In this document: positions 1 through 50,419 of the stretch, in pieces
Layout: each line of letters begins with the position of its first letter
How positions within the stretch are numbered: the first letter of the stretch is position 1
Assembly: GCA_019914995.1 (NCBI GenBank)
Contig: CM034137.1
Span: 6,537,155-6,601,154, forward strand
Direction of reading: 5' to 3'
Source of the DNA: Acanthochlamys bracteata
Taxonomy: Eukaryota; Streptophyta; Magnoliopsida; Pandanales; Velloziaceae
Length of the DNA: 64,000 nucleotides
Notes under the pieces: model-generated
Seen by the model: the letters and a program-made list of their open reading frames with translations, nothing else
The model's database searches: none
What the model was told of the DNA's origin: nothing
Made by a program: the position numbers and the translations under genes

Positions 1-589
1 GTAATTCAGCTTTCTGCTCTGACTGCTTGAATATCAGCAACATACTTACCAGTTTTAATGATGCCAAGTAAAGTACAGTTACATTCTACTGTTAACTACT
101 GATGAGCTACTCATTGTATTATTGTTAATGGTTTGATAAAATGTTTTACATCAGAATCTATAATGCTCATATTTATCAAATAATGCTAGACTGGTTTATA
201 ATTAAATTAAAGTCTCTTTCCTAAAGAATAAGAGAGCTGAAGGCTTACACGCAGCCATCACCCAGTAGTAGTGCCAACCAAGTAAGATTTCGCATAAACT
301 AACAAGCCTAGTATGTCTTTTTTACTGGCAGTATAATAGATATGCCATCCAAACCAAAAAAAGTAAGAGCAACACAAACTTTTTAAGTTCCAGATGATCG
401 AAAATTTAGGTTTCAGCAAGCATGGTATTAATTCTGTTTCCTTTAATCTAGACTTCAGAAAATAATCTCAAGAATTCAATTTGAAGCTTGTAAAATCTAG
501 CCTCTCAAACTACCTGCGAATAATAGAGCAAGCAGAGTTTCTGAGCTTTCATTGCATCAGAGCTGCTGTGATGTTCACTTGTAGTCTCT
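1..589. other. spacer, no gene recognised
   Basis: I see no coding segment, RNA gene or structured repeat here. From about position 590 the minus strand begins to show remnants of a PPR-DYW C-terminus, so part of this stretch may be the former 3' flank of that decayed gene. Confidence 0.4.
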
Positions 590-2300
590 CTAGTGTCATA
601 GAGAACTTCCATAGATATCAGCTTGACTGCAGATTCGCAATCACCACAGCCGGAAGTTTTTGTAAACCCTTATTTTATCTGAAGTGCTAAAAAGGGCCCA
701 GGCAATAGCAATCCTCTCACTGTGATATGCCGAAGCAGCCTCCTGCTCATCATCCACATCATGCATTGCAGATTTTTTATCATAGAAATAAACCAAATTC
801 GTTCAATTTACCACCAATCCAATCAATTTACCACAGACAAATTCATCTCTTGACTAACTGATTGTCATCCAACTGCAACCAGGAAGATTCACTATCCCTC
901 TGCATCTCATCATTACTCTAGTTCGAGAGACATCATTCCATCTGCCAGCAGAAGAATTGATGTTTGATAGCATTACATGGTCAGCAGTATTAGCTGGATC
1001 CAAAGAAAAAATCTTTTGTGCAATTGTTTTGGCTCTAAGCAGAACCAGCCATATTTTGGTGTCTGACTCCATGGACAAAGTCTTAAATGAACTCTTCTGC
1101 CTCCTCCAAGCAAGCATAGTGCTCAAGCTTCACCTCTAATGAAGGATCCTGTTTAAGAATATTAAAAAAATGTCTTCCTTTCTCTAGCATTTTGGCATGT
1201 TTGCACTGCAGCAAGTGTAACCTCATCCGGTTTCATAAAGCCTGCTCCCATCTCATCCCGTTTCATAAGTTCCCACTATGCATATGCACATACAACTACG
1301 ATAGAGTTCCATGAAACAAGACTCCTCATGCTCATATTGTTAAAAACCATGAGAGCATCTTCTATAACTCCACATTTTGCGTACATTGCTGCAAGAGATT
1401 CCCACAAACACATGAGTGTCAAGGGGTTGTTTAATTGTGTATTTATGTATTTTCATCTCTCTATCAACCGCTTCAAGCTTACAACATGAGCTCAATGCAA
1501 TTGGGAAACTGAGTCGGCTAGGCTGAACACCAGAAGCAAGCATTTTGCCAAACTCGTACAATGCATGCCCATATCAGCCATTAAAAGACCATAACCAGTA
1601 GCAAGAAAGTCCATGAAACCAAAATTTTGTGCTCACTCTCATCAAACATCTTGCATGCACAATCAATTTCCTTACGGTTAGCATAAAACTTAAACAAGAG
1701 ACCAGAGATATAAGTATCAAAAGGTAACTGGTTCCCACAAGAGGTGCATGAAGCTGAGTACTGAGGCTGAGATCTGGTGGATTGCGCATGCTTTTGAAAC
1801 ACAAGCCAAGGTGCTCGACGTAGGCTTGATCCTTGAAACCCACATTTTTCTTCAAAATTCAAGGCTTGATCACTCTCCCCACTTTGGTCATACCCACCAA
1901 TCATCACTGTCCATGAAATAACATTCTTTCGCACATCTGATCAAACAACAACCTAGTGTCCAAAACTTTGCCATGGTTGTATTACTCAAGAACCATGGAG
2001 TTCCATGCTGCTATTTCTCTATAAAGCGTTCACCAAGTAACTTCTCCATAGCATCACTTCTTCCAAGTTTGAGCAAGGCCAGTAAGTATAGTAGTACAAG
2101 ACACAACACTCTTTTTGGCATTTCTTCAAACAATTTTCAAGTAAGCGGTAGATTCAACAGAATCTAAAGAGCACTTGAGCATCGAATTCCACGAAGTAAC
2201 ATCTCGGTTAGGCATATTGTCAAACAGTTGGAGGGCATCGGCGATCGTGCGAGTAACCATCGATCATCAGGATATCACAAAAACTAGTCGGGCCCGATCA
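590..2300 (-). pseudogene. PPR-DYW pentatricopeptide repeat protein, decayed
   Basis: Intact relatives are organelle RNA-binding proteins of the PLS class whose C-terminal DYW domain acts in C-to-U RNA editing. Read on the minus strand, the pieces run in the right order but in changing frames. Around 2170-2270 there is ADALQLFDNMPNRDVTSWNS, a PPR motif. At 1860-1934 there is NVISWTVMIGGYDQSGES, and at 1390-1561 a further repeat (LASGVQPSRLSFPIALSSC). At 854-1126 the E-domain hallmark AGRWNDVSRTR is followed by PGCSWMTIS. At 693-735 the DYW-domain segment YHSERIAIAWALF appears, and at 610-648 CGDCESAVKLIS. Frameshifts and stops separate these blocks (one lies between KNFR and CGDC), the catalytic histidine context is kept only in part, and no terminal D-Y-W is seen. 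It is therefore a pseudogene. PPR genes normally lack introns, so intron splicing would not rescue it. Confidence 0.85.
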
Positions 2301-2790
2301 ATTCCATCGTTGGAAAGAAGGTTGATTAGGTTAGACAATAATTAAGAGATGCTTGCTGTTGTTTTTTGTTGGGTTTTAGATCATGTTACATATGTTACGA
2401 ATGGTGAATTGGTGGAAACCGGAGGAGCGACACAAGGGAGAGGAAGTACAGATGTTTTCAGATTTGAAAAAATGGCGGTGAGTGTCGTGGCTCACTGAAG
2501 CATAGAAGACATTCTTCTAGTTAATCCTTAATTAGTCCAAGCTCTGGGAATTTGTATCCATCGACAAAGAATCGAACTCGAAGAATTAAATAAAACAAAT
2601 GCGATTACACAACATTAGTAAAGACACTCTAATTTTGATATTTTTCCACCCAAGATGCATTTTGACAATTTTATCTGAAGTTTTAAATATATGGGTGATA
2701 TTATGAAGGAAAATATTGAAGGTCGAATGAATAGTATCACCAACATCAAGCCAAAAAAAGAGGGGGAGACGACGGTGCGCGCCTTAGGAT

Positions 2791-8786: not shown

Positions 8787-9540
8787 TTTAAGCTTAAATC
8801 ATGTACAGCCATATTTCAATTATCACTAAATTATTTTTGTATTTTCAGTTCAGCACCTTATATATTTCAACTATTATTTTAAACTCTATTTCCACTTCTA
8901 CGTCTCTTTCACCAAAATTTTAAATTCTATTTTATATATTTTGAATTATCACACCAACTTTTTATTTTACTAAGTTTTACTTTTTACCAAATCTTTCTTT
9001 TTATAAAAATTCATTTTGGTAAAATTTATACTAATCGCTGTCCTTCTTTTGCCTTCTCTTCAAAATTAGGAGTTAAATTAGCCCAAAATATATAACCCTG
9101 CAATTTAACTCCCAAAAGTGATAGTACCTTAATAAGGTTTGTGAGTTTCAAGATCTCAAGAGATTTCAGAGACAGAGATTAACAACTCTACTCAATACAA
9201 TCTAATAGTTCACAGAATAACCCTGCAAGCAAAGAATTAGTGAACAAAATTCAATACAACATAATAAAACAGTTGATATTTTCAGATTGGTAGATGAATT
9301 CAATGAAGAATCCTGCATCTTTCTTCTTCTCTAATTATGATACGGAGAGGGGAAGGGTAGAAGCATATACATGTTATCCACAATTTACAACCAACCAAAA
9401 ACAACTTTGTTGAACAAACTTCATCATCACCTATTACCAACAACAATTAACATCAACAATTTATAATCATAATCATCACAATAATCACCAATATTCATTA
9501 TCAATTCCTTAAAATAAAATTCCTCACCAATATTAATTTC
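8787..9540. other. spacer downstream of the bHLH gene
   Basis: AT-rich DNA with a fragment at about 8860-9040 that resembles the MITE family seen at 44431-44640 and 61674-62142 (phrases such as TTTCAACTATTATTTTAAAC and CACTTCTACGTC). The part next to the bHLH stop codon should contain that gene's 3' UTR, but I could not fix a polyadenylation site. Confidence 0.35.
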
Positions 9541-9564
9541 ATTCACCGTAGCCTTAGCAATCAA

Positions 9565-10185
9565 TCAATTGTCCGTTGTTGTTCCGCCGGAATCGCTTGC
9601 TGCTGTCGTTGTTGTCACCGGAGGTGAGATAGAAGTATTGGAAAGCGCATCTGCAAGCGCACGCATAGCCTTCACCTGCATCTCAAGCGCTGCTACATAA
9701 TCAACAGCTTCTTCAAGCAAACTAGTAGCCGGAAGTTTCCGGCAACCAGGCACAAGTTTCCCAAGCTTTCTCAACCTCTCTCCAAGCTTTCCTTCTCCTT
9801 CTTTCTCCACCATCATCGCGGGCGGTAGTACCGGCGGCATATGCGGCTTTGGTAGGCAGCGCCGGCGAGCTTTCATCGCTTTTTGAACTTTAACTCTCCG
9901 GCATCTGGTAGCGAGAATCGCACGGCTCCATCTAGATTGCCCTTTTGCTGTTATCGCTAGCGCGGAATCAGCTGCTTCTTTCACTGCTTTCGCTCCGCGA
10001 GCTGATTGTAAACCTTCAAGAAGTCTTCTGTTGTAGATTCTCTCCTGTGCTCCAGTCCGCCACTTGTTCTGCGGCGGCGGCGGAGGAGATCGAGATGAAG
10101 ATTTCTGTTTGTTAGAAATAGGTGGACCTGATTGATCCGGTGATGTTGTGAATAACATGTTGAAGAAGAAAAAAGAAGAATTCAA
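9565..10185 (-). CDS. atypical bHLH transcription factor, bHLH147/148/149 (AIF/IBH1) type
   Basis: A single-exon gene of 206 codons. Members of this family are helix-loop-helix nuclear proteins that do not bind E-box DNA themselves; known ones sequester growth-promoting bHLH partners in brassinosteroid and cell-elongation control. The N-terminus is Ser/Pro-rich with a run of prolines (about residues 34-38). Residues 41-59 (KWRTGAQERIYNRRLLEGL) and 64-96 (AKAVKEAADSALA followed by SRWSRAILATRCR) are the conserved blocks that define the family. The HLH lies at about 132-181 (LRKLGKLVPGCRKLP, loop, LLEEAVDYVAALEMQVKAM). The basic region lacks the H-E-R pattern needed for E-box contact. A second in-frame Met at residue 10 is an equally plausible start. 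The Thr/Ser-rich C-terminal tail is unremarkable. The family is firm; which paralogue it is cannot be told. Confidence 0.9.
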   Translation of the reverse strand: MNSSFFFFNMLFTTSPDQSGPPISNKQKSSSRSPPPPPQNKWRTGAQERIYNRRLLEGLQSARGAKAVKEAADSALAITAKGQSRWSRAILATRCRRVKVQKAMKARRRCLPKPHMPPVLPPAMMVEKEGEGKLGERLRKLGKLVPGCRKLPATSLLEEAVDYVAALEMQVKAMRALADALSNTSISPPVTTTTAASDSGGTTTDN

Positions 10186-13100
10186 GAGGGTTGGGAAATG
10201 GAAGAGGGAATGAAAGATGGGAAAGAGGAGATGGTGGTGGGGGAGGGTTAGGGTGGAATGATAAAATGTGAAGCCATGTGAAGAGGTGGGAGTTGGTTTT
10301 TGATGGATAGATTTATAGGATTTTAATATATTTTATTGTTATTGTATTTGTTTTAGAAGAGGGTAAAAAAACAAAGATTCTTTTGTTAGTGTTTTATGAG
10401 CTTTAAAAAGTTAAAAAGTAAAATATTTGAATATTGAAATAACTAAACATATAAAGTAAATATATGAAATTGTCTAGAAGTAACTTCTGCATATTTATTG
10501 CTCACAATCTTCTTATAATAAGGTATTATTAATAGTAATAAAAGCTACTATCTATCTAATAGTAAAATATTTCTTTTCCTTTTATTATTTTTGTTAGCAA
10601 AAAAGCTATATGGATATGGGCAGCTGTGCATGCACTGTAGAGTACATTTTAGTTAAGCAAACATATTATTCACGCACTTAAAAAGTGGCCTAAACTTGCA
10701 AAGCAAACTTGTGAATTTAATCTATATATAATTAAAAAAGAAAAAAGAAAAAAGAAAAAAAAGGAGTGATTAAGATGTAATAGGGGAGCCCACCACGAAC
10801 CCTAAGCTCACATGATTCCCACATTACATGAAGGAAAATGATTAATATAACTATTATAAGCTTTTTGTTTAGTTTTGTCTAGAAATTATTTAGCTTAGTA
10901 TTTGTAAGTTAATTATTCTGTATGGAGAACCAACCTCGGTATCGATCCAAAAAGACTATCGGGCCATTGATTTATTAGGCGGGTTACTAAGTTGACCTGC
11001 CGAGAACGATATAGCGGCAGAGAAAGTTGGCATGGCGACGATGAAATCTTCGGTAGAGACAAACTGCAAATTCAAACACAGCACCATGCACATGGAAAAA
11101 ACCCTAGCCACTGTAAGCTCGCTGCCGGAGAAGACAGTAGCTCAGCCAATAGAATTGGTAGAGGAATTGCTATATCGGACACGGTGTTGTGATCATTTAG
11201 CTGATCGAAGATTGATTGATGGCTACAGTAAGGAGTGTCGAATCTACAACATTCCAAGTTGCTTATGAATAAGCTCAAGTTGAGCCTAAAACTGCATTAT
11301 GTTTACTTCTAGCTTTTTGTCTTTACTTTTTTTTTCTTCTTCTTATCTCCATCTCTCGACAGCTACCTAACACACGTAGTCCTTCTTCCCGACGCACAAC
11401 CAATTCCCCTCCAACGACGATCATCTCTTTCACAACCCTTCAAGCTGTCATCTTTCTTCCTTTCAGTTGTCGCCATCGCAATTCCCGCGATCTTCGCCTC
11501 ACAAAACAAAAAATAGGGTTTTGTCCGATTGTTTCACCGACGATCAGGTGACTTCAAGTGGCTGAAATTCTTATATGATTCGTAATCACAAGAACCGAAA
11601 CTATTTGTAATGCTAGATAAAATTTAAAAATTAAAGATAAAACTAGAATAAAGTATCCATCAATTCTTCTTCCATCATTTTTAATGAATACGAGTATTCT
11701 TATTTATAGCTAAAATTCATAATTAGAATTTTAGCTTTACTACAACTCAACTAAGATAGAATTTCTATCTAATTTGGACACTATTTCTTACAATGCAAGA
11801 TAGAGATTTTTTTCTGTAAGAATTTATCTATATATAAAATTTTTAACTATATAAGTAAATACTAATTTTTTATTAAAATTCAAATGTTTAACTCTTCTAT
11901 ATAAAATACGGGCCTCATAGCTTGAGGCTAATGGTGTAACAAGATCCTCCTCTCAACTTGCTATTGTTTTTTTATTTTATTACGTGGAGTTTTACTCCGG
12001 TGCATGATTGTATGCGAACTCTCGTCGGACGTCATTCCTTCAAATTCTAATCGTCAATGTTAAATCGAAAATCATGACTTGGTAAACAAATAATTCGGTC
12101 CAAAATCGTAGCCGAATCACTACTTTCTGATTATATTTGGCTGGTCCAGGCTAGATCTGACGATACTGATAAGAACATGTTATTAAAGCAATTCCAATTC
12201 AAGAGTTAATTTTGTATCGGTGGATAGATTGTTTAGTTTTGGTTTGGTCTATCACGACATGCTGATGCTTTCAAAAAGCAAATCAAATATGAGAAGAAAT
12301 ACTGTACCCACCAACTATTATATCTCGTCTTCTGTAAGAAGTCGACATGTATCAGATCCCTAAAAATTGTACGCATGTTTAATTTGACAGTGATCTACTA
12401 TATAATAATTATATTGAGCTAGAAAAAATAGCTAGTAATTCTATGTATTCAACTCAACATACTTTAGAAAAGTACTTATAGAAGTATTTTTTTAATTTTA
12501 ATAAATATTTAATTTTAAATATTTTTTTATAATTTCTAAAATTCTCTATTTTTTAAATAATTTATGTATATTTTATTATAAAGAATATATATCTGACTTT
12601 TACATTTAAAATAAAAAATTAAATTCTACTTTTTAATAATTAAATAACGGATTTTAATTATTCGAAGAATGAGATTGGAAAATTTGGAAGTACACATTCA
12701 CAATATATATGGGGTATTTATTCAATGATTGGTTTGTGCCCACAATAATATTCATTGACCGCCGACGACTTACCCCTTTTCTTGGAAATCAAAGAATTAT
12801 AGGAAGATAAAATATTACGAAATTTGATAATAATGTTTAGAAGTATTTATAAAATTAAAATTTTTTTAAAGTAAAAATATTTTTAAAGTGTTTTATAAAT
12901 AAGTTATTGTGCTGTTTTTATAAAATAACTAATAATAAAATTAACGATATAGACTTTTGTATTTTTACTTTTAAAATTTTTTATAAAATTTTATTATTTA
13001 TTAAAAAAGTATAACAAAATATTGAAATGAAATATTTGTGAGATAAAAATAAACTCGCTTTTTAAAAAAAATTAAAAATAAAATTAAAATATTTAACCTT

Positions 13101-16906: not shown

Positions 16907-17335
16907 TAGAGGTGTAAAAATGGGTCGGGCCAAACGGGCCGGTCTGCGGTCCGGTCAGGTGAATAGTGACAGGACATGGCCTGCCCGGTCCAATCCATCA
17001 GGCAGGACGGGCCGATTATATTGGGCGGCCCGCTCGCCCGGATACTGTTCATATTGATCGGTCAACGTTGACCGATCAATATGGACCGTTGACTAGGTCA
17101 AATTTAAATAAAAAATATTTTTATATTACTAAAAAATAAATTTAAAAAATAAAAAATATTTATTTTTTAATTTTAGCTTAAAAATAATTTTTAATTTTTA
17201 TTTTTATATAAAATTAAAATATAAATCGGATAAATGAGTCGGGCCGGATCATAAGAAATAAAACCGAGCTGGACTGGCCCGACCCGGGTGCTTTATCCAG
17301 ACCGGGCCAATCCGATCCGTCCGTTTTTGCACCTA
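16907..17335. mobile_element. non-autonomous TIR element with 11-bp target duplication (Mutator-like size)
   Basis: A 429-bp insertion flanked on both sides by the identical 11-mer ATAGTCTTAAA (16896-16906 and 17336-17346). Its ends are inverted repeats: TAGAGGTGTAAAAATGGGTCGG at the left and CCGTCCGTTTTTGCACCTA at the right. The outer parts are GC-rich (GGGCCGGTC, GACCCGGG), the middle is AT-rich, and a perfect palindrome sits at 17050-17083. A duplication of 9-11 bp points to Mutator-like elements; if only 8 bp were counted, hAT would be the alternative. It has no coding capacity. The intact target duplication suggests a fairly recent insertion. Confidence 0.8.
17050..17083. repeat. 34-bp perfect palindrome inside TIR element
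   Basis: Each arm is CATATTGATCGGTCAAC or its exact complement, with no spacer. Such a perfect palindrome can extrude as a cruciform. It carries GTCAAC/GTTGAC, which includes the TTGAC core of a W-box on both strands, so any regulatory effect would be symmetrical. Function is not established. Confidence 0.9.
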
Positions 17336-18657: not shown

Positions 18658-18996
18658 ATGATCAGGTTCTCATCTCTTCTTCTCTTACTGGTTATTGCTA
18701 TCAACATGGCTGCTCGCGTTCGGTTAGCCTGTGCACTTGGTAAGTAAGGCCACAATCTTTTGGATTTTTTTTTTTTTTTTGGTAATAGAATCTAGCGTGG
18801 TTAGACGTGAATGTCTATCTGTTAACTTGAATTATGATTTTGATTTTCTGCTGTGTCATTTGCAATTGCAGATGGTAATAGGAGGATGATGGGAGGCAGG
18901 GTTGGATTAGGTCCACCGGCGCCTGCAGGGAACCGTCTTCATCACCATTTGCCTCCAGATGAAGGAGGACCTCGATCTCCTCCAGGCAACTACTAA
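18658..18996 (+). CDS. small secreted peptide precursor, tandem copy 1 (68 aa)
   Basis: A two-exon gene read by eye: exon 1 at 18658-18739, intron 18740-18871 (GTAAGT...TTGCAG, phase 1), exon 2 at 18872-18996. The first about 26 residues form a signal peptide (MIRFSSLLLLLVIAIN core, then Arg and CAL). The second exon gives a proline- and glycine-rich tail: GRVGLGPPAPAGNRLHHH, then LPPDEGGPRSPPGNY to the stop. There is no cysteine in the mature part. The layout (signal peptide exon, phase-1 intron, short Pro-rich C-terminus) is that of plant precursors of post-translationally modified signalling peptides. The next gene, 306 bp downstream, repeats both the intron phase and the motif (RVGL, PPAP, N, HLPP, GP at equal spacing), which strongly supports both models. 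I cannot assign it to a named family. PPAP followed by basic and His residues recalls IDA- or CLE-like peptides, but the match is weak. Function is unknown; secretion is inferred. Confidence 0.75.
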
Positions 18997-19301
18997 CACT
19001 ACAAGGTTCAACTTGATGAATTCCGCCATTTTTAAGTAGGGTTTATTATTTCAAATTGAATATGAGTCTTTAACAATATGAATATAATAGGCTTATTATG
19101 TTGCTGATCAGATTTATGTTTGTCTTTCTGATGTTTATAGTTATACCAAATTTCTTGCTCTTGTTAATGTTTATGGCCAGTAGGTAAGAATAGGTGAAAT
19201 TTATACAACCAGTTGGTGCCAAAACCAATCAAATTAGTAAAACATTTAGTTCGACAAATTATAAACCAATGCAAAATCAATCTTCTACAAGCTGAAAGAC
19301 A

Positions 19302-19576
19302 ATGCAGCACTCGCCCTTCATCATCAGAACCCTTCATGCTATTATACTCATGGTTTCCCTTTTCTTTTTCATTCAACTGTACCATGTCTATGGAGGTAAA
19401 ATTCATCTGCTCTTCATTAGGAAAATTTTTTTTTTGAATCTCTTTTTTGATGTTTTTATCCGGTTTCACTTTGCCTTTTAGGAGCCAGAGTTGGCCTTTG
19501 TCCGCCAGCTCCGTTGAGCAACGAAGTTGAGCAACATTTACCACCGCAGCAACAAGGGCCTAAAAACTTGGGATGA
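19302..19576 (+). CDS. small secreted peptide precursor, tandem copy 2 (62 aa)
   Basis: Two exons: 19302-19395 and 19482-19576, with an 86-bp phase-1 intron (GTAAAA...TTTTAG). Exon 1 encodes a signal peptide with the hydrophobic core AIILMVSLFFFIQL, ending near YHVYG. Exon 2 encodes ARVGLCPPAPLSNEVEQH, then LPPQQQGPKNLG. Compared with copy 1, the mature region keeps R-V-G-L, P-P-A-P, an Asn three residues on, H-L-P-P, and G-P after three variable residues, while the signal peptides have diverged. This is the pattern of selection on the mature peptide after a tandem duplication. It has one Cys where copy 1 has Gly. The C-terminus is shorter than in copy 1 (no PPGNY). The start at 19302 is the first Met of the frame before the hydrophobic core; a later Met within the core would spoil the signal peptide. 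Confidence 0.72.
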
Positions 19577-22778: not shown

Positions 22779-25700
22779 ATGGAGAGAGGAGGATTTGTTT
22801 CTCTGCTGCTGCTGCTGTTGATCAGCAGCGGGGAAAGTTGGACGGGCGAGATTCACGGTCGCGTGGTCTGCGATGTCTGCGCTGATTCCTCAATCGGTCC
22901 TGAAGACCACGCTCTCCCAGGTACCAATTCAATCAAATCAATCAATCGATCAGTTTATCTTCTATAATAAAACTTTTGTCGAAGTAACTGGAAGTGTCTG
23001 TTTTCCCTACTCGATTTTTGTTTGGAATTGTTGTAGGATAGCTGCTTTTGTTAGTTTGATATTAGTATTGGGTCTTTTTCTGTTTGGAGTTTAAGCGAAT
23101 TTGCGTTAAATTGTTTAATGGTGAGTCGTGTTTTTATTGCTTTGTAACTAATTGTATTGAATTTAGTCATCCTATAGTTCATGTTTGGAGATTCCACGCT
23201 TAGGTTAAACGAAAGGTGTCCAGTAACCTGTAGTGTTCTTTTTTTTTTAGGTCTATTTTTGGTTCGTATTGAAGTTTCATACGAAGTCTCTGTTGTGCAA
23301 AATTTTCTTCCTTATACGAGGTAATGTTAGTGGTTTAGCCCTACATGACCAGACTGGATGTTTCTTTGGTCTTTTATACGTCCTAGGCAACTCCACCCTT
23401 TGCCAATTGGTTTTGGGTTAGAGACCCATGCTTCTAACAGGTCATGGATAACAGTGTTGGACTAGACAATGATTGGCTAGGTTTTGGTATTGCCTTTAGT
23501 CCTGAATCCCAGGTACCATCTTGTTTGATTATTTAACAATTGAAAATTCTTTGTGTTTATGGTTGGTTGGATTCTTACTTTTAGTTAACAGTGGATTAAT
23601 TAAGGTATGCTCTTGTTAGATAGTCCTATTGTGGAATATAGGGATTGTAATTACCAAAATAGTTAAAGCTTCCATATCTCTATCGTGCATCCTAGACATT
23701 TGTTCGATTCATGATAACGGTAGAGAGGATCGACAAAGTAATAGCTGTAGGTAAGGAATACCCTCTTCATTCTAATAGTGGCATATTTCTCATTGACATT
23801 GTGAGTTAAGAATGTTAAGGAGATACGCTTTAGCAAGTTATGACTTCAAATACTAGTGACTTCACACACAAAGATATTTAGCTAATGCTCACCCAAGTTG
23901 CAGTTAATGCACATAACTTGCCTAAATGCTCCAACTATGTTCTCTGTTTTCATTATTTGGTTTATTTTATTTTATATTTTTTGGGTGTAAAGCGTAGTGT
24001 GCCATGCATATTGGATATAAATGGATACATGATTAGGGCAATGAGGAGGACAATCTTGATTAAGGACAACGAAGTCCCACTTATAGTACTCAGGGAAGGA
24101 TCGTAACCTTCTCTCATAATTTTCCAAGTTCTGTCTATTTGATGAGCATGCATGGCATGCTTAGTAAGTTTGAACATAAAGACCAGGTCTCCATGATATT
24201 TTGAGAAGGTATGTGATATAAATTGAGCTAGTGGTTGATGCATTAATTGGAGTAGTTATAAATAGTCTAATTAGTTAAGAGCTACATTTGGGAGTTGTTT
24301 ATATACTAGAAATAGAGTTAGAATTAAGAGTTTTAGTTAATTTAGAATAAAGCGACCTATTGGAACATTATCGAGGTAATTTTCTATATATGACATTATG
24401 CGATAAAAGAAAAGGATTCTTAGGAACAATATCCTTGTAACTTCTATTTTGTTTGGCAACTTTATATATTGCAAATTTTACTAAGAACAGTGAGCATTAT
24501 ATCCAGTTTGAGTGTTTCCAATTTAGTGACATTTTCTTTTCAATTGGTTGGAAGTGTTAAATGATTGTTGGAAATCAAGCAAATGGTCTGATAAAAGGAA
24601 GTGCAAAAAATCTGGAGAAGTTTTCGAAAAATCACCAAAAAGCGAAAAAGCTATTAACCAACACTTCTCAAATAATATCTAAGAAAATTACCTGAATATC
24701 TTTTCAATTTCAGTTCTGCAATTTTTTAAGATTTAGAAATAATCCCAGAACGAATACTCTAAAGAATTAATAGATTCCGTTGGTTTTACAAATATTTCAT
24801 GTGAACAAGTCAAAAAGGATACTCATAAAAACCACTAAGAATTTCAAAATAATTTTAGAAACCACAAGTGAAAAAGGATACTCATGATTTGATCCATGCT
24901 TATGACGACTTTGATCGACCATCTCGTTTGAGATATACACACAATTCCTTATAGAGATTCAATAATCTGAGCTAATGGACATCACAAATTTAATTAGCTT
25001 GTAAATCTAGTTAACACTAGTGTTTAGAACTCACAATCAAGGAGAAAAATAAGTTGTTTAGAGTCAGGTTATTGGAGGAAATTCTTGAAGAGTAAAAGAG
25101 AGTAGTGTGCGAACTAGGATGTAAAAGAGAGTAGTTATTGAGCTTGTTTTCTTTTGTACACTGAAGGTTGTTATGTTATTTGAATTTATTTCGTTACTCA
25201 TTTACACCTTTGAGAATGGAAGAGATGGTTAAGATTTGAGTTCATTCTTTTGTAAATAAGTGTTGCTTTAGTCATGTATGATTACTGCTAGTAATATTCC
25301 ATTTAGCTTTTCTTAAGGTCAGATTAGTACCTTCTACTGTACTTCGATTTATCATGTACCATCAAATGAGTTTTGGTGGCATTTAAGCTTACCACACTTT
25401 ATCTGAAGTATGTCCTCAGTGACATTCTCTTGGCATCCTCCTAGTTCATGAGCAGCCCTAATCTTATACCTCCTATTGAAGTCAAGCATGCAATTTTAAT
25501 AAATAGGCCTTTGTTCCTTGCAGGTGCAGAGGTTGCAGTTCTTTGCATAACAAAATCAGGTGATGTTTTCAATTACCAGGCATTCGCTGACTCTAGAGGT
25601 GTCTACAGAGTGGCAGAGTCGATGCCTGAGAGTGATAGGTGGGATTCATGTGTGGTCAGGCCAATAAGTAGCTTCCATGAGCACTGCACTCGACGAGGGG

Positions 25701-25807
25701 ATGCCCATTCTGGAATTAAATTCAGATATGACCTCCAATCTGGCCGCTCTCATACTGTTAAACCATTCCTCTATAGGCCTGCATCCGTTCCTTTGTATTG
25801 TTCTTGA
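22779..25807 (+). CDS. pollen Ole e 1 / extensin family secreted protein (141 aa)
   Basis: Two exons: 22779-22920 and 25524-25807, joined across a 2.6-kb phase-1 intron (GTACCA...CTTGCAG). A signal peptide with a run of leucines encoded by CTG repeats precedes the mature start near EIHG. The family signature GRVVCDVC is present. Exon 2 starts inside HALPGAEVAVLC, continuous with the family's beta-strand pattern, and the protein ends in VPLYCS. Six cysteines are found in the mature part (two in GRVVCDVC, then VLC, DSC, EHC, YC), the usual number for Ole e 1 disulphides. Members are small extracellular, often cell-wall-associated proteins; their biochemical role is mostly unknown. An AATAAA at 26062-26067 is a plausible polyadenylation signal. 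The intron contains unremarkable AT-rich DNA with LTR-like fragments near 24240-24420. Confidence 0.88.
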
Positions 25808-27283
25808 GAATGCTAATTGTTATACGTAGAAAGGCAGCAGGTAGCTTAATGCTCACTATAATAATCAAGTGGTTTCCATCGAGGTTATGCTGTTGTGTGC
25901 AGAGGTTGTTCAGCAAGAAAATATTATCATCTATTTGTTGCGGTGTGTGCTTTATTATGAGTGGTGGCTTTGCAGCAGCATCAATATTTACAATTAATAG
26001 ATGTTGGAGATGGATGTCTGGAGTATTGTGTATCATTGTATGCTGGGACCATTTGAAGTAGAATAAATACTTATTGCTCATACTGAACGATGACTTGCTT
26101 TAACAGATTTGGGTGGAACACTGAGTTGGACAGATGAGTGGTATGCATAGTATTGTCGTAATAAATTGAGCTCCAGAGGTGCTCAATCACAACTATATTT
26201 GAACTTTCTGTGTGCTTGTGCAAAAAGCATGTTCTGGATTTCTTCAAAGATTACCCAATACCGAGTATGGAAGGTTTTCTCATCTGTTTTCTGCATAATA
26301 TAGTAATATTGAGTTCTTGCAATGGTTTTGTAGTTTGGTTGGCAGATGTAATTCTTGTTTGATTGTTATTGTTGTCGACGGTCTGATTTCTCCTAGAAAG
26401 TTTAATTTAAGCTAAGCACTTCTGTTCATATATCTTGATCTAAGTTAAGGATATTTTATTAGACAAATTCATGGTAAATTGTAGCATACTAAAGTTGAAG
26501 TTTGCAAGTTTTTTCAAACTTAGTACTTTTAGCAATTCCATATGCTATTAGACATGCCTGTATGCCATCACCATGGTGAATTCTGTTCTGTATGTTGCAA
26601 ATACGCCTTGCTGCGTGAAGGTATCATTAATGTGCTCAAAGAGAATTGAGCAGCCTGCTTTTGATCCAAGAAAGAAGAACAGAATAGAAAAGCAGTGCTT
26701 TGTCACTTTGCAAAGATAGGTACATCTGATGAGATTCATTACCAAGCAGTGGCTGCATAACAGATGTTATGCATCATGCGTTTGTGATGAATTTTCACGT
26801 TGTGGTTAGGACGCAGTCCATTTACAATTAAATAGGTACTGAAAGAAGCTGACTTGGTTCTAACTTCGTCAATCCTAGCACCAAAATCATACATTGGAAA
26901 CGCGTGAATGGGTATAAATCTCCTCCTTATGAGTAACGGAGTTCAATATATGCAATTTCAAACAGCAAATCAAATGTTAGTTGGCAGTTGTACCAAATTC
27001 CTTCCTCAAATGTGTATGTATTTTACTGGCTGAGGAAGTTCCTTGGAAGTATGCAATTTTTTTAAGGGTTTAAAGTCAGACCAATAATTTGGAATATTGT
27101 ATTACTGTAACATAATAAATTTTATGAGTTTTCAACTCTTAGCTTGTTTGCAAGCCAAGTTTTTATAGATTAGATTAATTGAAACTTGGAGAAGTGGTTA
27201 GTTTTCTCTTTAAATCTTTGATCAACAAGCAAGACTCCTGCATCCCCAATCCTAAAGTTTGTGCACTTCCAATCATTCATACG
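25808..27283. other. Ole e 1-like 3' UTR and spacer before the NB-LRR gene
   Basis: The first about 280 bases are the likely 3' UTR (AATAAA at 26062-26067). The rest shows no gene or clear repeat. The frame of the NB-LRR gene stays open upstream of its first ATG for 35 codons (from 27179), but without an ATG. Confidence 0.4.
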
Positions 27284-30200
27284 ATGGAATCAGCTATGCT
27301 ATCTTCCCTTCTGTGCGGTATATATGATTTAGAAACTTATATCCAAAATTCAAATTGCTGCAGTGTCATCAGTGAAGATTTGTGTGCAATGAAGGAACTG
27401 CTACCTGCAATTCAAGCTGTGATTGGTGACGCAGATGTAAAGAGTTTGAATGATGAGAACGTAACACGTTGGTTGCAGAATGTCAGAGAGGCAGCATGCC
27501 TAGCAGTGAAAGTGGTAGATGAAACCGGGTACGAGCTCATGAAATATGAAGCTGAGGTCAGTGATCGCTCACGCACTATTACCTCTACTGATGACCTCTT
27601 TATTACTCTAGCAAGTAATGTTAGGAACGTAGTGAAGATGTTTGATGAAATTTCGCATAAGAAGCATGCATTATTCTTAAAAGAGAATTGGTCGAATATC
27701 ACAATGCAAGAGCACTGTGAGCTGCAATCGGATGAACCAGTTCTTTATGGTAGGGAGGAGGATAAAACAAATTTGATTGAAATGCTTTTATCTGAAAGTC
27801 AAACTAATTCTATCATCTATTTAGTTGGGAGTGCTGGCATAGGGAAGACCACTCTTATCAGGGTCCTGTATGATGATCCAATTGTCCACAACCATTTTGG
27901 GGAGAGAAAATGGCTTTACATGTCAAGACATTCTGATGCTACATGGTTTCAAAAACTACTACTAGAATATTTCACAAACTACCGTTTGATAGGGCAAAGG
28001 GTTCTACTCATCGTAGATGAATTTTGTGTAGAAGACAAAAGCTTATGGAAAATTATAAAAGATCTCCTGTCTTTGGTCCGTAAGGGAAGCAAAGTTCTAG
28101 TAATTGCAGATGATCAGCAAGCTGTTAGCATTGCTCAAACTGTGCCTTCATACCATCTCAAGAATTTATTACCTGATACAAGTTACCTCTTGTTTCAACA
28201 CTATGCATTTGGTTCACAGCAGCAAGAATATGAGCTAAACTTAATAGAGGTCGGTAATAAGATAGTTGACAAATGTAACGGTTCACCTTTGTTCATAAAG
28301 ATGATTGGAGTCCTATTGAATTCTGAAACTCGAGAAGATTACTGGAACTCTATTTTGCATAGTGATTTATGGGATTCTGATGGGACTTTGGCTGCTGTAA
28401 AATTAAGCTTCTTGAGTTTGCCTTCAGAACTGAAAACCTGTCTTAGTTATTGTTCCATATTTCCTGAAGATTACCTCTTTAAAAAAGACTACTTAGTCCG
28501 GTTGTGGAAGGCAGAAGGGTTTGTCTGCCATGCAGACAGAAAGCAAAGTGAAAACTTAGCCTACAAATACTTCGATGAGTTGTTAAGAAGGTCCTTTTTC
28601 CAACATGCCCAAATTGGTCGTACGTTTATGATTCACCCTCTTGTTCGTGACCTAATAGTATCTATCTCTAGAAACCAAGTTTGTAGAATGGAAAGTCCCA
28701 ACCTATGTACCGTTCCTTCCACTGCTTGCCATTTGTTCTTAACATTTTGGGACAGTGATACACCTCTAGACATTTATCTTTTAGGCAATCTCCAAAACCT
28801 GCGTAGTTTTTTGACTCTGAACAGACTGCAGCAGGCACATATTGACTACTTTCCTGACTCTGATAAAATTCGTCTTCTGCTTCCAAATGACTCCTTTTCC
28901 AATATGAAATCCTTGAGAGTACTCAATCTGAGTGACACTGACCTTGTCAACCTGCCTGATTCCATTGCCATCCTAAAACATCTCCGTTACCTTTCCCTCA
29001 ACCGCACAAGCATCAGATTCTTACCTGAGTCTTTAAGTAAACTTTACCATCTGCAGACGTTGGAACTGCAAGATTGCTTCGATCTTATAGAGCTGCCAAG
29101 AAATATTGTTCATCTGCGAAATCTGCAACATGTTCTTCTTCCTAACAGCTACAGGTCTGTTCTCCTGCCTCGTGGGATTGGAAAATTAACTAAACTAGAG
29201 ACTTTGTCAACATTTCTTGTTGGTGGAAAGGAAAACCATTATGTCATCAGAGAGCTTGAAGGTTTGGTTAACATCACAGGAGATCTGCGAATTTCTGGGC
29301 TTGCTAATGTTATAGATGTGGATGATGCAAAGGCAGCCAATTTGATGAATAAGACGAACCTCATAAAATTGACACTATCCTGGGGTTGCCTCAGAGTGAT
29401 ATATCCTAAAGATGAGGATATTCCAAAACGTTCGCTTTCTGAGAAGGGACTTGTATATGATAAAGGAAGAACGGACTTGATGGAAGAAAACACCAGCTCC
29501 AGCAGTTCTAACTTTGAAGATGAAGGATGGATCTACAACATTGATATAGTCTATGAGCAAGTTGATCTAAAAAAGATTAAGCAAAAACACCGTTTAGCAG
29601 AAAGAAATGCTCGTGAATTACAAGAAGGAGTAATGGAGACCCTTCAGCCTCACAGCAACCTGGAAGAGTTGATAATTGAGGATTACAAAGGGTGCAGTTT
29701 TGGGTCCTGGTTAGGGGACCCTGGTTTCTCCAAATTGGTGTCCATTAAGCTTCACAGTACCTCAAATTGCCAACAACTTCCTCCGCTTGGACAATTGCCG
29801 TCACTCAGGCATCTCCACTTAAGAGAGATCTATCGTTTGCAAACAATTGGCCAGGAATTCTATGGATATGGTAGCTTGCACAACATAGCATTTCCATCTC
29901 TTGAGACATTTGAGCTTGAACAGCTATTTTCTTTGGAGGAATGGTTCGGAATAGAGAACGGAACTGCATTTCCTCGTCTTCAGCAACTGAGACTGGAAGG
30001 ATGCAGTCGTCTACAGGTGATCCCTAATATCTTCATTTCTTTGAGAAAGTTGGTAATCCACAATTATTTGTTGCTAGGAAGACCTGCGCTACGAAGTCTT
30101 CCTACGGTTCCCTCATTGACACATTTGGAAATTTTAGTAACTGACGAGAAGATCCTTTCCTTCTTGCATGAGGATTTGCTGCCTGAACTTAGAACTTTGA

Positions 30201-30532
30201 AATTTTCTTTTGACAATAACACAGAAGCCATACATCTGAATAATTTGTCTTCGCTTCAAGAGCTTGAAATCCTTGGAGGGTCATGTTCATTGGTGGGATT
30301 GCAGTCTCTCCTTTCTCTCAAGAGCTTAGTGATACGCAGTTCAAAAATGGTTTGGAGTCCAGATGAAGAGTTGCCTCCAAACCTCGAATATCTTGATATC
30401 TCCCACTGCCGATCACTGACTGAGTGGTTTCTTCAACATGGAAGAAGCAGACTGGTTCACATACCTGAGGTTCGACTAAATGACAAGGTTGTCAACCTTA
30501 CCGGCGACGAGGAAAAAGCTTATGTTCACTGA
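27284..30532 (+). CDS. CC-NB-ARC-LRR (CNL) disease-resistance-like protein, 1082 aa, intronless
   Basis: CNL proteins are cytoplasmic immune receptors that switch between ADP- and ATP-bound states. From the first ATG (27284) the order is: an Rx-type coiled-coil region (about 1-135; KELLPAIQAVIGDAD, TRWLQNVREAA); a P-loop GSAGIGKTT at 182-190; a shortened RNBS-A to kinase-2 stretch; kinase-2 LLIVDEF at 241-247; RNBS-B-like GSKVLVIAD at 268-276; a GLPL-equivalent CNGSPLF at 331-337; RNBS-D LKTCLSYCSIFPED at 383-396; and an MHD-equivalent MIHPLVRD at 449-456. Leucine-rich repeats run from about 540 to the end (MKSLRVLNLSDTDLVNLPDS, LRNLQHVLLP). Oddities: kinase-2 has D-E instead of D-D, GLPL is GSPL, MHD is IHP, and a charged, serine-rich insert occupies about 702-780 between LRRs. 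The LRR part is of the RGA/RPPL1 type. The frame is uninterrupted, so it is probably expressed, but nucleotide handling may be atypical. The upstream open stretch lacks an ATG, so I start at 27284. Confidence 0.92.
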   Translation: MESAMLSSLLCGIYDLETYIQNSNCCSVISEDLCAMKELLPAIQAVIGDADVKSLNDENVTRWLQNVREAACLAVKVVDETGYELMKYEAEVSDRSRTITSTDDLFITLASNVRNVVKMFDEISHKKHALFLKENWSNITMQEHCELQSDEPVLYGREEDKTNLIEMLLSESQTNSIIYLVGSAGIGKTTLIRVLYDDPIVHNHFGERKWLYMSRHSDATWFQKLLLEYFTNYRLIGQRVLLIVDEFCVEDKSLWKIIKDLLSLVRKGSKVLVIADDQQAVSIAQTVPSYHLKNLLPDTSYLLFQHYAFGSQQQEYELNLIEVGNKIVDKCNGSPLFIKMIGVLLNSETREDYWNSILHSDLWDSDGTLAAVKLSFLSLPSELKTCLSYCSIFPEDYLFKKDYLVRLWKAEGFVCHADRKQSENLAYKYFDELLRRSFFQHAQIGRTFMIHPLVRDLIVSISRNQVCRMESPNLCTVPSTACHLFLTFWDSDTPLDIYLLGNLQNLRSFLTLNRLQQAHIDYFPDSDKIRLLLPNDSFSNMKSLRVLNLSDTDLVNLPDSIAILKHLRYLSLNRTSIRFLPESLSKLYHLQTLELQDCFDLIELPRNIVHLRNLQHVLLPNSYRSVLLPRGIGKLTKLETLSTFLVGGKENHYVIRELEGLVNITGDLRISGLANVIDVDDAKAANLMNKTNLIKLTLSWGCLRVIYPKDEDIPKRSLSEKGLVYDKGRTDLMEENTSSSSSNFEDEGWIYNIDIVYEQVDLKKIKQKHRLAERNARELQEGVMETLQPHSNLEELIIEDYKGCSFGSWLGDPGFSKLVSIKLHSTSNCQQLPPLGQLPSLRHLHLREIYRLQTIGQEFYGYGSLHNIAFPSLETFELEQLFSLEEWFGIENGTAFPRLQQLRLEGCSRLQVIPNIFISLRKLVIHNYLLLGRPALRSLPTVPSLTHLEILVTDEKILSFLHEDLLPELRTLKFSFDNNTEAIHLNNLSSLQELEILGGSCSLVGLQSLLSLKSLVIRSSKMVWSPDEELPPNLEYLDISHCRSLTEWFLQHGRSRLVHIPEVRLNDKVVNLTGDEEKAYVH

Positions 30533-35700: not shown

Positions 35701-38700
35701 AGATTTGTATTGATTGTAATGATGATTTAGTAATAGCTTTGATTTTATTTATTTATTTATTATTATTATTATTTTGGTACTAGTGATTTCTGTTTACCAT
35801 GATCTCTCTTTTGCACAGCTGCTTCTTTCAATTTGACTTTCATGAAAGCAACTGTGAACTCTCCTGGTTGGAATTTATCCAAAATGGCTACTAAACTCTG
35901 TATTTTCTTCTATTCTCCTTTTGTGTCTTTTACATTGTATGCGCTTTCTGAGGTTCTGCAGTAATGTTCATTGAGGCCTGGCTCATTTATTACATTTTAA
36001 TCTTTCTCTCAGCAATAATGTAGAGACGTATGGTTAGTTAAGTTTGAATGCTTAAATTTTCTTATCTCAACTTTAAGACTCTGAATGAATGATATTTCTC
36101 ATATGCCATATATTCTAGGGCTTCAGATCTTTCGTATGGACAGCAGTTTCCTTCCAGATGAAAGATATGCTTAAGTTGTCACCTTCAGCTTCTCAATTTG
36201 TAATCTCTGTTGCTTATTCTCCTTGGAGCGTAAAGCCACTTTACGGGTACGTACTATTATTAGATAAACTTAAAGTCTTATTTGACAGCTTAACTTTCAT
36301 AACTACTAATTTTGTTACCAAAAATTTTCTAAAGCACTCCTTTTGTCCTTGGACTTTTTCATTGGATTGATTTTGATCCTTGAAAAAGTCAATGTCCTTT
36401 TGTTGCCTTATGATATGTTTTCATGGCATTAGGTAAGTTAAATTCAAGTTAATGACTTCGATGGAATTTCTTAAAAGGAGTTTGTTGTGCCTCAAACTCC
36501 TGCAAAATTACTGTGTTCTGAAATATTAGGTATCTAAAATGTCTTAAGCACTTAAGAAACTAGGAACTGTGAATTGTTTCCATTGAGGACCAAAAGGAGC
36601 CTTTAGTTTGATGCTTCAGAGGCTATAAGAGTGCTTTTGAAAGTTTAGTGACTAAATTGATCATGGAAGTTTGGAGACAAACTTAGGACTTTGACCTTAA
36701 CAGTATTATTTCTACGACTTCTATTTTACTCTTTCTATCTTATTACCATAAGTATTAAGTGTGAGAAGATGGTTTGGAGATACTGACATTTGATTGTAGC
36801 CTCCTGGAGTCTGATGAAAATATAGGTGAACACTTAGCAGGATTCATCTTCATTCATAGAAAACTGTCTTTACAGCTGTGGATGTAAAATCTCTCAAGGT
36901 TGTAAAACCTCTCAGGTGATTAATTAACTGAACATTTTGGTAACATGCTTCTTGAAGATATGCATTTGCTTTAGGATATTCTAAGGCAGGAAATTTCAGT
37001 TCTTATTTGTATTTCTAGTTGGATTGATCGTGAATGGTGTCTTTCCTCTCTACCATTAAGTGCTGCAAGTGAAATAAACTTTCTCTTTCTTTTTTTCATC
37101 TGATTTTGTAATTTGACCTGGCTGTAAAAAGAATGGATCTCAGTTAGCATATGATATTCTTTTCCTCTACTTTTTTTCTCGGTACTTCTGATTGCAACAT
37201 AAACTGGTTTTTGTATATGTATTTACTTCATTTTTTTGCAGGATCATTTCAGACTGTATTCCTATCAAGGGGAAGAAAAGAGTTCCATACTTAATCATAG
37301 CCACTATTCTGTGCCTTTTCCCTTGGATTGTTCTCAGTTTACTATCATCTTTGAGAAATTCACGCAACGGTCTCACTGTTTTTTTAACAGTTCAAAATAT
37401 TGGATCTGCTATGGCAGATGTGGTTATCGATGCAATGATTGCAGAGGCAATTCGCTCTGAGAAGTACGCCATTCTCCTTTTCTCCTATTTAGTTCTGTAA
37501 GTATGCCATGGTTTACCTGACAGCATGTTTTTTATCAGCTCAAAATTATCTGGTGATCTTCAGTCAGTTTCATGGTCCTCAATGGCTTTGGGTGGAATTT
37601 TTGGGAGTGTTCTTGGCGGATATGCATTGTCAAATCTGAGCATAGAGAAAATCTTTCTTCTTTTTGTTATTCTTCCAGCTGTTCAACTATTCGCTTGTAA
37701 GTTTGTCCATGAAGCTTCTTCTGGGCTTCTTAAGTCAACGAGTGGTAGCAAGGTTGTTCTTTCAGAACCTGAAGCTACCACAGAAGTTCAAAAGTCTTCC
37801 AGTCAAAAAGTAAACGGTGGAACTTCACAGAGGAGGAGGAACAAACTTAATAAAAATAAAGAAGAAGCAGATAAGAGAGTAGCAGAGAATAAAGCACAAA
37901 ATAATCAACAACCATCAGGATTGCTTATATCTCTAAAATCTGCTACTTTCGGGTTGATTCAAGCATTCAGGCAGCCAATGATTCTAAGGTACTGCATAAC
38001 ACCCTCTTGTTGATTTTATTTTTTTTTTTCAAAATTAATTATTTGAGTTGAGCATGCCCACCAGTGAATGTTCACTTATTTCCACATTTTGATTTCTACA
38101 TTTCCTGTGGCAGACCTATGGCCTGGTTCTTCTTATCTCATGTTGCAATTCCGAATCTCTCAACAGTCATGTTCTATTACCAGACTGATTTCCTGCATCT
38201 GGGGGCATCATTTTTGGGAAATGCACGAGTTATTGGATGGTTTGGCCTCATGTTTGGAACATATGCTTATAATCGCTATTTGAAGCACGTGAGGCTCAGA
38301 AGCATTCTCATGTGAGTATAAACTAAATCCTCGAACTTTACTTTTCTTCTCTTTTTGTTGTTTGTTATTATATTTATTTTATGCTGTGTTTCTTGGTGTC
38401 TTATGGTTTTGCAATTTATGTGCAAATCTGCATCATATGAGCAAATGTCCATGTTATAAGTTGATAACTTTATGGCTGTGACTGAGTTTTGCTTGGCCTT
38501 TACCATAATACATGGCAGAGAGTTTGAAAAGATTTGGTACTTTGATTTCGGATGCATTTTATGTATATATTACAGAGTATGTATACCTAGTTCTTTCTTT
38601 CTGTAGAATATGGTGCCGGTGGCTCTATTAGTAGATCATATAGAACCCATTTTGTGAGAATTAGGATACCATGCAAGTCATGCTGATAAACTAGGGGGAT

Positions 38701-48533: not shown

Positions 48534-48794
48534 TTAATAATGCATCCAAGATACGAGACAAGCCACGCCGGCAGTGACGATAAACGCCGGAGCATCAATC
48601 GCAAATGCAGCACTCGGAGTAGTCGATACGGAGGACCGAGGTGCCGGTGCCGGAGCTGTAACATTTGTGTTGTGGGCACGAGCAGATGCAGGTGCAGGTG
48701 CACGAGCAGCCTTGGGAGTAGCCGATGCCGCAATGCTCAGCAAAGCGAAGGCGCAAACCAGAAGCAGAAGAGTTTTATGTCTGAGACTTGTCAT
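48534..48794 (-). CDS. arabinogalactan peptide / short AGP, GPI-anchored (86 aa)
   Basis: Residues 1-25 (MTSLRHKTLLLLVCAFALLS plus IAASA) form a signal peptide. The mature part has Ala-Pro glycomodules (ARAPAPASARA, TAPAPAP), an NVT sequon, and a C-terminal hydrophobic GPI signal (APAFIVTAGVACLVSW, ending MHY). The frame stays open upstream to a Met at 48836, but that extension (MCFRKKESIELIKA) would put a charged stretch before the signal peptide, so I start at 48794. The layout, signal peptide (M-x-S-L-K/R ... VC ... ALLS ... SA) and C-terminal helix match the gene at 45622-45831, suggesting an old tandem duplication. The product should sit on the outer face of the plasma membrane. No function more specific than AGP can be given. 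Confidence 0.82.
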   Translation of the reverse strand: MTSLRHKTLLLLVCAFALLSIAASATPKAARAPAPASARAHNTNVTAPAPAPRSSVSTTPSAAFAIDAPAFIVTAGVACLVSWMHY

Positions 48795-50419
48795 TGCTTT
48801 GATTAATTCTATGCTTTCTTTTTTTCTGAAACACAAAATTCCTTCCGGTGAAGTTGTTCTGTAGTTGTTTGCGTTCTGAGGATGGCACTATTTGTAGTGT
48901 TGTTGTTGCGACTCTTTCTAGGTAGTTCAGGTTTTTAATTTACTACGAAAGAAACTTCCCTAGATAATAAATAAGGGCTTATTTCAAATCACGTAATTAA
49001 ATTTTGCAAAATAAAAAATAAATTTTTTGTTAAAATATTAAAAATAAAGTTTTATTTTATTTTAAAATGAATTAAAAGTGAAGTATAAATACTTTAAAAT
49101 ATAATTTTAAATTTAGTTTATATTTGAAATATATAAATTATTTGAAATTCTAATTCTAGCGAATAAATTTGAAACTGAAATTTCCGTACATTTAAAACTA
49201 ACTCTAATAATAAGTTTTGCAACTTTCTTAAAATATTCAGATAATTTTATGTTTTGGTTTCAGAAGCTGTTTGAGTTGGGTGTGTTATGAACTACCTATC
49301 CCAAATGTGTTCTGAAAGTTTCTGGAAGCGTCTGTAACAGAAGGTAGTTGTGATCTATCTCAATCAACTAATTTAAATTATAAGCTCCTTAATTAATAGT
49401 CCTCAAGCATATATAAGTAATGTGATATATTATATAGTGGTTTTGTTATTTTTGGTTAATAATGACTTAGTTCTTTTGTCATTATTATTATTATTATTAA
49501 AAAAAGTCGAGGTGATCTAAAAGTTTAAAAGTATAAAAAAAATTATAAAATTTTATTTTGATTATATTTAAAAAACTACTGTTAAAAAAATTAAATAATT
49601 TTTATTTAAAAAAATTTTATTTGATAAGTTCTCAACTCTCAAGCAATCACCTAATCGGCAATCAGGAACTGACCAAATTAAAATTTGTATTTAAGACTTG
49701 TTTACTTGTGATCAACAAGAAATTCAGAATATAAATTTCTAAAAGGTGTATTATTGAAAGTAAATTTTTGAAAACAAATTTACAAAAATAAATATGAAAG
49801 GTCAACCAAAAGTTAGTTTGATAAAAAAAGTTACTTTTAAATTTTTTTCCTAATAAGTTCGAGTGTAGCTTCTTTGTTAATCAACTATTATGTGTTTAAA
49901 GAATGTATTTATCTCTCTTAATTAATTTCTTAATTTTTTATAAATAAAAACTTTCATTAATAAAATTAACCAAAAACTCTAGATTCCCATTATGAGCAGA
50001 AAGATAACCAATCTTTTAGAAGAATGTAATTATTGGTAAGATATGTAAAATATATCTTATGAAATATAAATTTTTTGTCCTCATTTTGTTGTTTTGCTGT
50101 GTCTGCTGCAAGGGCCGGCCCTCTGTTTTAATTTCTTTTATAATGTAACAATTATTAATCTATATTCTATCATATAAATATTTGCATTAACTAATCAAAA
50201 CTGACCAGAAAATAAAATTATGTTACTTGAGCTGCTAATATTTTCTCACATGACTCCTATGTCGTAGTTTAACTTTATAATTTAATAAAAATATAATGCG
50301 CAATGGTAATTTAGGTGCAGATATTTTAGACAAGTTAGTAATTGGATAAAGTTTGATTATCATCAACATAAAAAATGTAGTAATTAAAACTCTGTGGGTG
50401 AGATCTTTAGGCTCTCATT
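48795..50419. other. spacer upstream of the second AG-peptide gene
   Basis: The promoter and leader of the minus-strand AGP gene lie in the first about 150 bases (TACAAATA-like TATA element near 48888-48895). The remainder is AT-rich without a gene. Confidence 0.35.

Follow-up and report, generated by a model that had tools for sequence, protein, structure and literature searches.

Two tandem genes for putative secreted, proline-rich peptides belong to a small gene family in Acanthochlamys bracteata

Introduction

Plant peptide hormones that are modified after translation share a simple anatomy, in which a leader precedes a short, proline-rich stretch of 12 residues that is under constraint. 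We are interested in two adjacent genes of this anatomy in a 64,000-nucleotide stretch of the Acanthochlamys bracteata genome, hereafter the window. We consider it probable that both are intact members of a small family of precursors of secreted peptides, five copies of which were identified, that the conserved core of each is processed into a modified apoplastic ligand, and that the tandem duplication behind the pair preceded the duplication of the surrounding block. As judged from sequence comparison, the existence of the gene family in this one genome is well supported; its signalling role is a candidate role only. The family members most likely represent proline-rich, modified secreted peptides.

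Results

Two adjacent two-exon genes

Both genes can be read in the sequence as a preliminary description of this DNA had proposed, namely as two-exon models with GT-AG junctions at introns predicted from the sequence (Table 1). Their coding lengths of 207 and 189 nt correspond to precursors of 68 and 62 residues for gene 1 and gene 2, respectively, and the lengths of the first exons place both introns in phase 1. The first exon of either gene encodes a hydrophobic leader, the intron follows directly after the leader, and the tail resides in the second exon. The best 11-residue hydropathy of the gene 1 leader is 2.9, and the leaders of all five family copies peak between 2.9 and 3.3, secretion being judged by hydropathy only. 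The longest ATG-to-stop frame containing the core of gene 1 spans 36 residues, and the core of gene 2 lies within no ATG frame of at least 20 residues. A plain list of open reading frames would therefore miss both genes, in line with the earlier remark that such exons escape ordinary annotation.

Table 1. Gene models of the tandem pair and other features noted in the window.
Feature	Position	Strand	Length	Description
Inverted repeat	17044-17089			abutting arms of 23 nt with 91% complementarity; about 1.6 kb upstream of the pair
Gene 1, exon 1	18658-18739	+	82 nt	leader MIRFSSLLLLLVIAINMAARVRLACAL and first base of the next codon
Gene 1, intron	18740-18871	+		predicted, phase 1; donor GTAAGT, acceptor GCAATTGCAG
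Gene 1, exon 2	18872-18996	+		DGNRRMMGG-RVGLGPPAPAGN-RLHHHLPPDEGGPRSPPGNY, stop
Gene 1, core	18898-18933	+	12 residues	RVGLGPPAPAGN, conserved; proposed mature peptide region
Gene 2, exon 1	19302-19395	+	94 nt	leader MQHSPFIIRTLHAIILMVSLFFFIQLYHVYG and first base of the next codon
Gene 2, intron	19396-19481	+		predicted, phase 1; donor GTAAAA, acceptor TGCCTTTTAG
Gene 2, exon 2	19482-19576	+		GA-RVGLCPPAPLSN-EVEQHLPPQQQGPKNLG, stop
Gene 2, core	19487-19522	+	12 residues	RVGLCPPAPLSN, conserved
Open frame	25445-25807	+		Pollen Ole e 1 match, barely over the curated cut-off
Long open frame	27179-30532	+		CC-NB-LRR resistance protein; Rx_N, NB-ARC, winged helix and LRR Pfam matches
Open frame	37501-38013	+		BT1-family transporter match
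Open frame	48534-48887	-		Ala/Pro/Ser-rich, arabinogalactan protein-like by eye; no Pfam match
Open frame	54169-54615	-		DUF7054 match

Conserved tails behind diverged leaders

The tails of genes 1 and 2 are identical at 15 of 29 positions in an ungapped alignment, and when the second tail was shuffled 5000 times, their score was never reached. RVGL, PPAP, N, HLPP and GP recur in both tails at identical spacing. The leaders have diverged, as also described, and score no better than shuffled sequences (813 of 2000 shuffles reached the score). When the whole genome of 195.5 Mb was searched in six frames, each tail retrieved the other with E-values of 0.0011 and 4.6e-4, and a reversed 26-residue exon-2 query gave no match at E ≤ 10.

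Three further copies in the genome

The window lies on contig C12. A DNA search revealed a second tandem pair on contig C7, located inside a block collinear with the window, and a fifth copy resides on the minus strand of contig C14 (1007312-1006994). The first copy on C7 (C7-1) starts at about position 7983354. Its leader reads MKFPSILSYVLLVNLIIIAISMQFYLSHAIN, and its core RIGLSPPAPSGN follows an intron predicted in phase 1. Past the asparagine at the core end it aligns poorly with gene 1, and its frame continues beyond the position of the gene 1 stop codon, most likely because of a frame shift. In the second copy (C7-2), the leader exon ends with a stop codon, and the second exon encodes the core RVGVSPLAPLSN. 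With a run-on frame in one and a stop in the other, both C7 copies look damaged. In the C14 copy, an intron predicted in phase 1 separates the leader MRSSLLASCLILIVVFVSASPLMHVVDG from a second exon reading ...NNRRILGS-RTGISPPPPANN. Of the five copies it is the remotest: 30 and 37 of 5000 shuffles attain the scores of its tail against those of genes 1 and 2, respectively. It stands alone within 60 kb around it, whereas the C12 and C7 copies are arranged in tandem pairs. Retroelement remnants containing stops, copia-like by eye, lie at C7:7979433-7980810 and C14:994758-1003222, within about 4 kb of the C7 pair and of the C14 copy.

All five copies are built alike: the first exon encodes a hydrophobic leader, the predicted intron occupies the same position and is in phase 1, and the core lies in the exon that follows. 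The precursors of the family measure 62-71 residues. The 12-residue cores follow the pattern R-[VIT]-G-[LVI]-x-P-[PL]-[AP]-P-x-x-N, directly preceded by N-R-R-x-x-G in three copies. Their centres read GPPAP, CPPAP, SPPAP, SPLAP and SPPPP, that is, PP[AP]P in four copies and PLAP in one. When the whole genome was searched, the second exons of different copies matched one another with E-values of 6.5e-6 to 0.0107. A composite query assembled from the copies retrieved exactly these five loci in the genome, and queries from single copies recovered two or three loci each, thus an incomplete set. Because the search scored only the best first-look candidates, the family may have additional, more distant members.

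The constrained unit ends at the asparagine

The additional copies allow the conserved unit to be delimited. Between gene 1 and C7, DNA identity in aligned columns is 54% in exon 1 and 43% in the intron; in exon 2 it amounts to 81% (50/62) from the exon start to the asparagine and falls to 40% (22/55) thereafter. From this drop right after the asparagine, we read the selected unit as ending there, with the 12-mer as the best-supported unit. For gene 2 and C7, the identities are flat (exon 2, 68%; intron, 65%; exon 1, 60%; stretch between the genes, 61%) and offer no clear contrast at the DNA level, so the case for gene 2 rests on codon counts. Nei-Gojobori counts for the core, which comprises 12 codons with few substitutions, gave a dN of 0.25 with saturated dS between genes 1 and 2, a dN of 0.13 and a dS of 0.56 between gene 1 and C7-1, and a dN of 0.12 and a dS of 0.39 between gene 2 and C7-2. 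For the latter pair, dN was 0.46 and dS 1.23 in the leader exon (30 codons), and dN was 0.34 with saturated dS in the stretch after the core (12 codons). Substitutions spread evenly over leader and tail, which had been named beforehand as an outcome contradicting selection on the peptide, were thus not observed: between gene 2 and C7-2, the leader exon has a dN of 0.46 and the core a dN of 0.12.

The same comparison narrows the original proposal, which had taken the whole tail as the conserved unit. With the three added copies, the unit shrinks to the 12 residues from arginine to asparagine, joined in three copies by the preceding N-R-R-x-x-G. The HLPP motif is present in both C12 genes, appears as NFPP in C7-2 and was not seen in C7-1 or C14. 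The suggested selection on a mature peptide is accordingly supported for the core, and not in full for HLPP and GP, which are kept in part only. The LHHHLPP stretch in the tail of gene 1 could also point to an antimicrobial or other non-signalling apoplastic peptide with a His/Pro-rich tail, for which the CC-NB-LRR gene 7.6 kb away provides a weak context. However, the histidine stretch is not common to the other copies and the conserved part is the 12-mer, which makes such a function extremely improbable.

A 16-nt non-coding block, TAGGTAAGAATAGGTG, at window positions 19181-19196, 105 bases before the start codon of gene 2, recurs unchanged in the C7 copy. Allowing up to two mismatches, no other site was found in the window, the C7 stretch examined or 60 kb of C14. 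The block is possibly a promoter or 5' UTR element. Together with the 61% identity in the stretch between the genes and the broken appearance of both C7 copies, it could also be taken to mean that the region is not protein-coding but consists of conserved non-coding sequence or decaying copies. We regard this as very unlikely, since in all 10 pairwise comparisons of the copies the core shows more synonymous than nonsynonymous differences per site, the splice phase is common to all five copies, and the nonsynonymous differences between gene 2 and C7-2 fall mainly in the leader.

A tandem duplication older than the block duplication

The window and C7 are collinear at window positions 195-2483, 9354-10337 and 18866-19545 and over pieces between 22746 and 29311, all in the same order and with about 66-89% identity, which is the pattern left when a segment or the whole genome was duplicated long ago. 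The tandem duplication probably predates this block duplication, as suggested by the same gene order in both blocks, by the leaders, each of which scores highest with its counterpart (38 and 62), and by the core dS values, which are lowest between counterparts (0.56 and 0.39). The tail scores do not indicate this order, since the loss of the tail in C7-1 leaves the gene 1 tail scoring highest with that of gene 2 (89, versus 56 with the truncated C7-1). We also considered whether C14 is anciently syntenic with C7 and C12 and rejected this, as the only matches were repetitive sequence, short dispersed hits, the exon of the family itself and a copia-type retroelement common to C7 and C14.

Comparison with known peptide families

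We compared the family with known plant peptides as they are described in excerpts of the papers cited below by PMC number. No Pfam-A family was matched by the proteins encoded by genes 1 and 2 and by the C14 copy, and the tail of gene 1 had no match among PDB sequences. In the collection of open-access papers searched, none was found with the motif strings of the core or the preceding stretch, and no title or abstract start among the matches listed in searches by topic names such a family. A PSGP centre, which the excerpt of PMC11331138 assigns to the CLE, CTNIP, PIP, CEP and IDA peptides, is absent from the five cores.

The likeness to CLE peptides of the CLE46/TDIF type comprises a putatively secreted precursor, a core of 12 residues, R1 (usual in CLE peptides), P7, P9 and [GS]11-N12. 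The copies could hence be strongly diverged CLE genes with an intron that have lost P4 and G6. In four of the five copies the core ends in P-x-[GS]-N, as in the poplar CLE46-like HKSPSGPNPVGN and TDIF-type HEVPSGPNPISN (PMC4776436, in part), and the gene for GmCLE13, with a CLE domain similar to that of AtCLE46, is predicted to contain an intron and encodes an extension at the C-terminus (excerpt of PMC4526924). One query and two patterns found no canonical CLE46 gene in this genome, although the query of 19 residues is short for the search used and its empty result shows little. The sole motif match, on contig C17, was rejected as a CLE46 ortholog, as it is without a leader and lies in a frame full of stops. 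A generic CLE pattern gave 19 matches in the genome, most of them after a CLE-like precursor, so the pattern method works for CLE genes.

Against a CLE origin, P4 and G6 are absent in all five cores, which therefore lack the CLE motif (P4, G6, P7, P9, usually H11, and N/H12). Scored with a matrix built from 50 poplar CLE motifs, the five cores obtain values between -1.2 and 5.7, far below every one of the 50 motifs, the lowest of which scores 22.5 with its own sequence left out; the AtCLE46 motif (from an excerpt of PMC7552357) scores 22.9. Shuffles of each core reach its score in 27 to 293 of 20000 cases, with the frame chosen after inspection. CLE genes are also mostly intronless in soybean, bean and poplar, according to the parts of PMC4526924 and PMC4776436 available. 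A CLE origin thus appears distinctly unlikely; the family may work like a CLE, and we do not class it as one.

The IDA/IDL and PIP/PIPL genes likewise encode short proline-containing peptides, and the IDL core ends in N followed by a variable tail (PMC4526919, excerpt). According to the same excerpt, these genes are intronless and carry SGPS, whereas none of the five cores contains SGPS and all five copies have the predicted phase-1 intron. The PROSCOOP precursors are small secreted proteins of 72-117 residues encoded by two or three exons in tandem copies, two of which had been unannotated before a manual search (excerpt of PMC6382344). They may resemble the present family in the two predicted exons, the tandem pairs on C12 and C7 and the leader, here recognised by hydropathy only. 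The defining SCOOP motif, SxS (PMC11331138, in part), occurs in none of the five cores, a single SAS being located in the C14 leader outside the core, and the excerpts of PMC6382344 and PMC8591736 report PROSCOOP and SCOOP in Brassicaceae only. The motif therefore falls outside the CLE, IDA/PIP and SCOOP definitions as well as Pfam, in agreement with the initial impression of a weak CLE/IDA resemblance without a named family.

The PP[AP]P centre of four copies resembles the -PPSPX- of HypSys and SCOOP2, and HypSys precursors possess a signal peptide, to which the putative leader of the present family may correspond (excerpt of PMC8591736). The genes could accordingly encode a HypSys-like, hydroxyproline-rich glycopeptide of plant defence or a small proline-rich peptide of the cell wall, acting via its Hyp-glycan with no strict sequence. 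However, each precursor of 62-71 residues holds a single short core whose conserved letters beyond proline include R1, G3 and N12, and HypSys, compared here by description only, is reported from Solanaceae and Convolvulaceae in the available part of PMC8591736. We therefore consider this alternative fairly unlikely.

Discussion

The evidence favours a family of secreted precursors whose 12-residue core is the functional part. In the proposed mechanism, the leader would route the precursor into the ER, where-after the prolines of the core would be hydroxylated and perhaps arabinosylated. Proteases would cut ahead of R1 and trim after N12, and the short peptide would reach the apoplast as a ligand of a putative receptor kinase. 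A tandem duplication would have come first, followed by the duplication making the C12/C7 block, after which the C12 pair would have remained intact. Both copies on C7 look broken, and constraint is therefore not needed everywhere.

Only tentatively do we suggest the further step that these genes constitute a separate plant peptide-ligand family, with a P-P-x-P core instead of P-S-G-P, two exons that annotation easily misses, an old tandem pair and a putative receptor kinase; this possibility is weaker than the reading as secreted precursors. If real, it would add one more small family of peptide hormones, whose core of 12 residues is defined and could be directly synthesised and tested. The two-exon precursors of the family would exemplify how such genes escape annotation, and the core pattern provides a concrete profile for searching other plant genomes.
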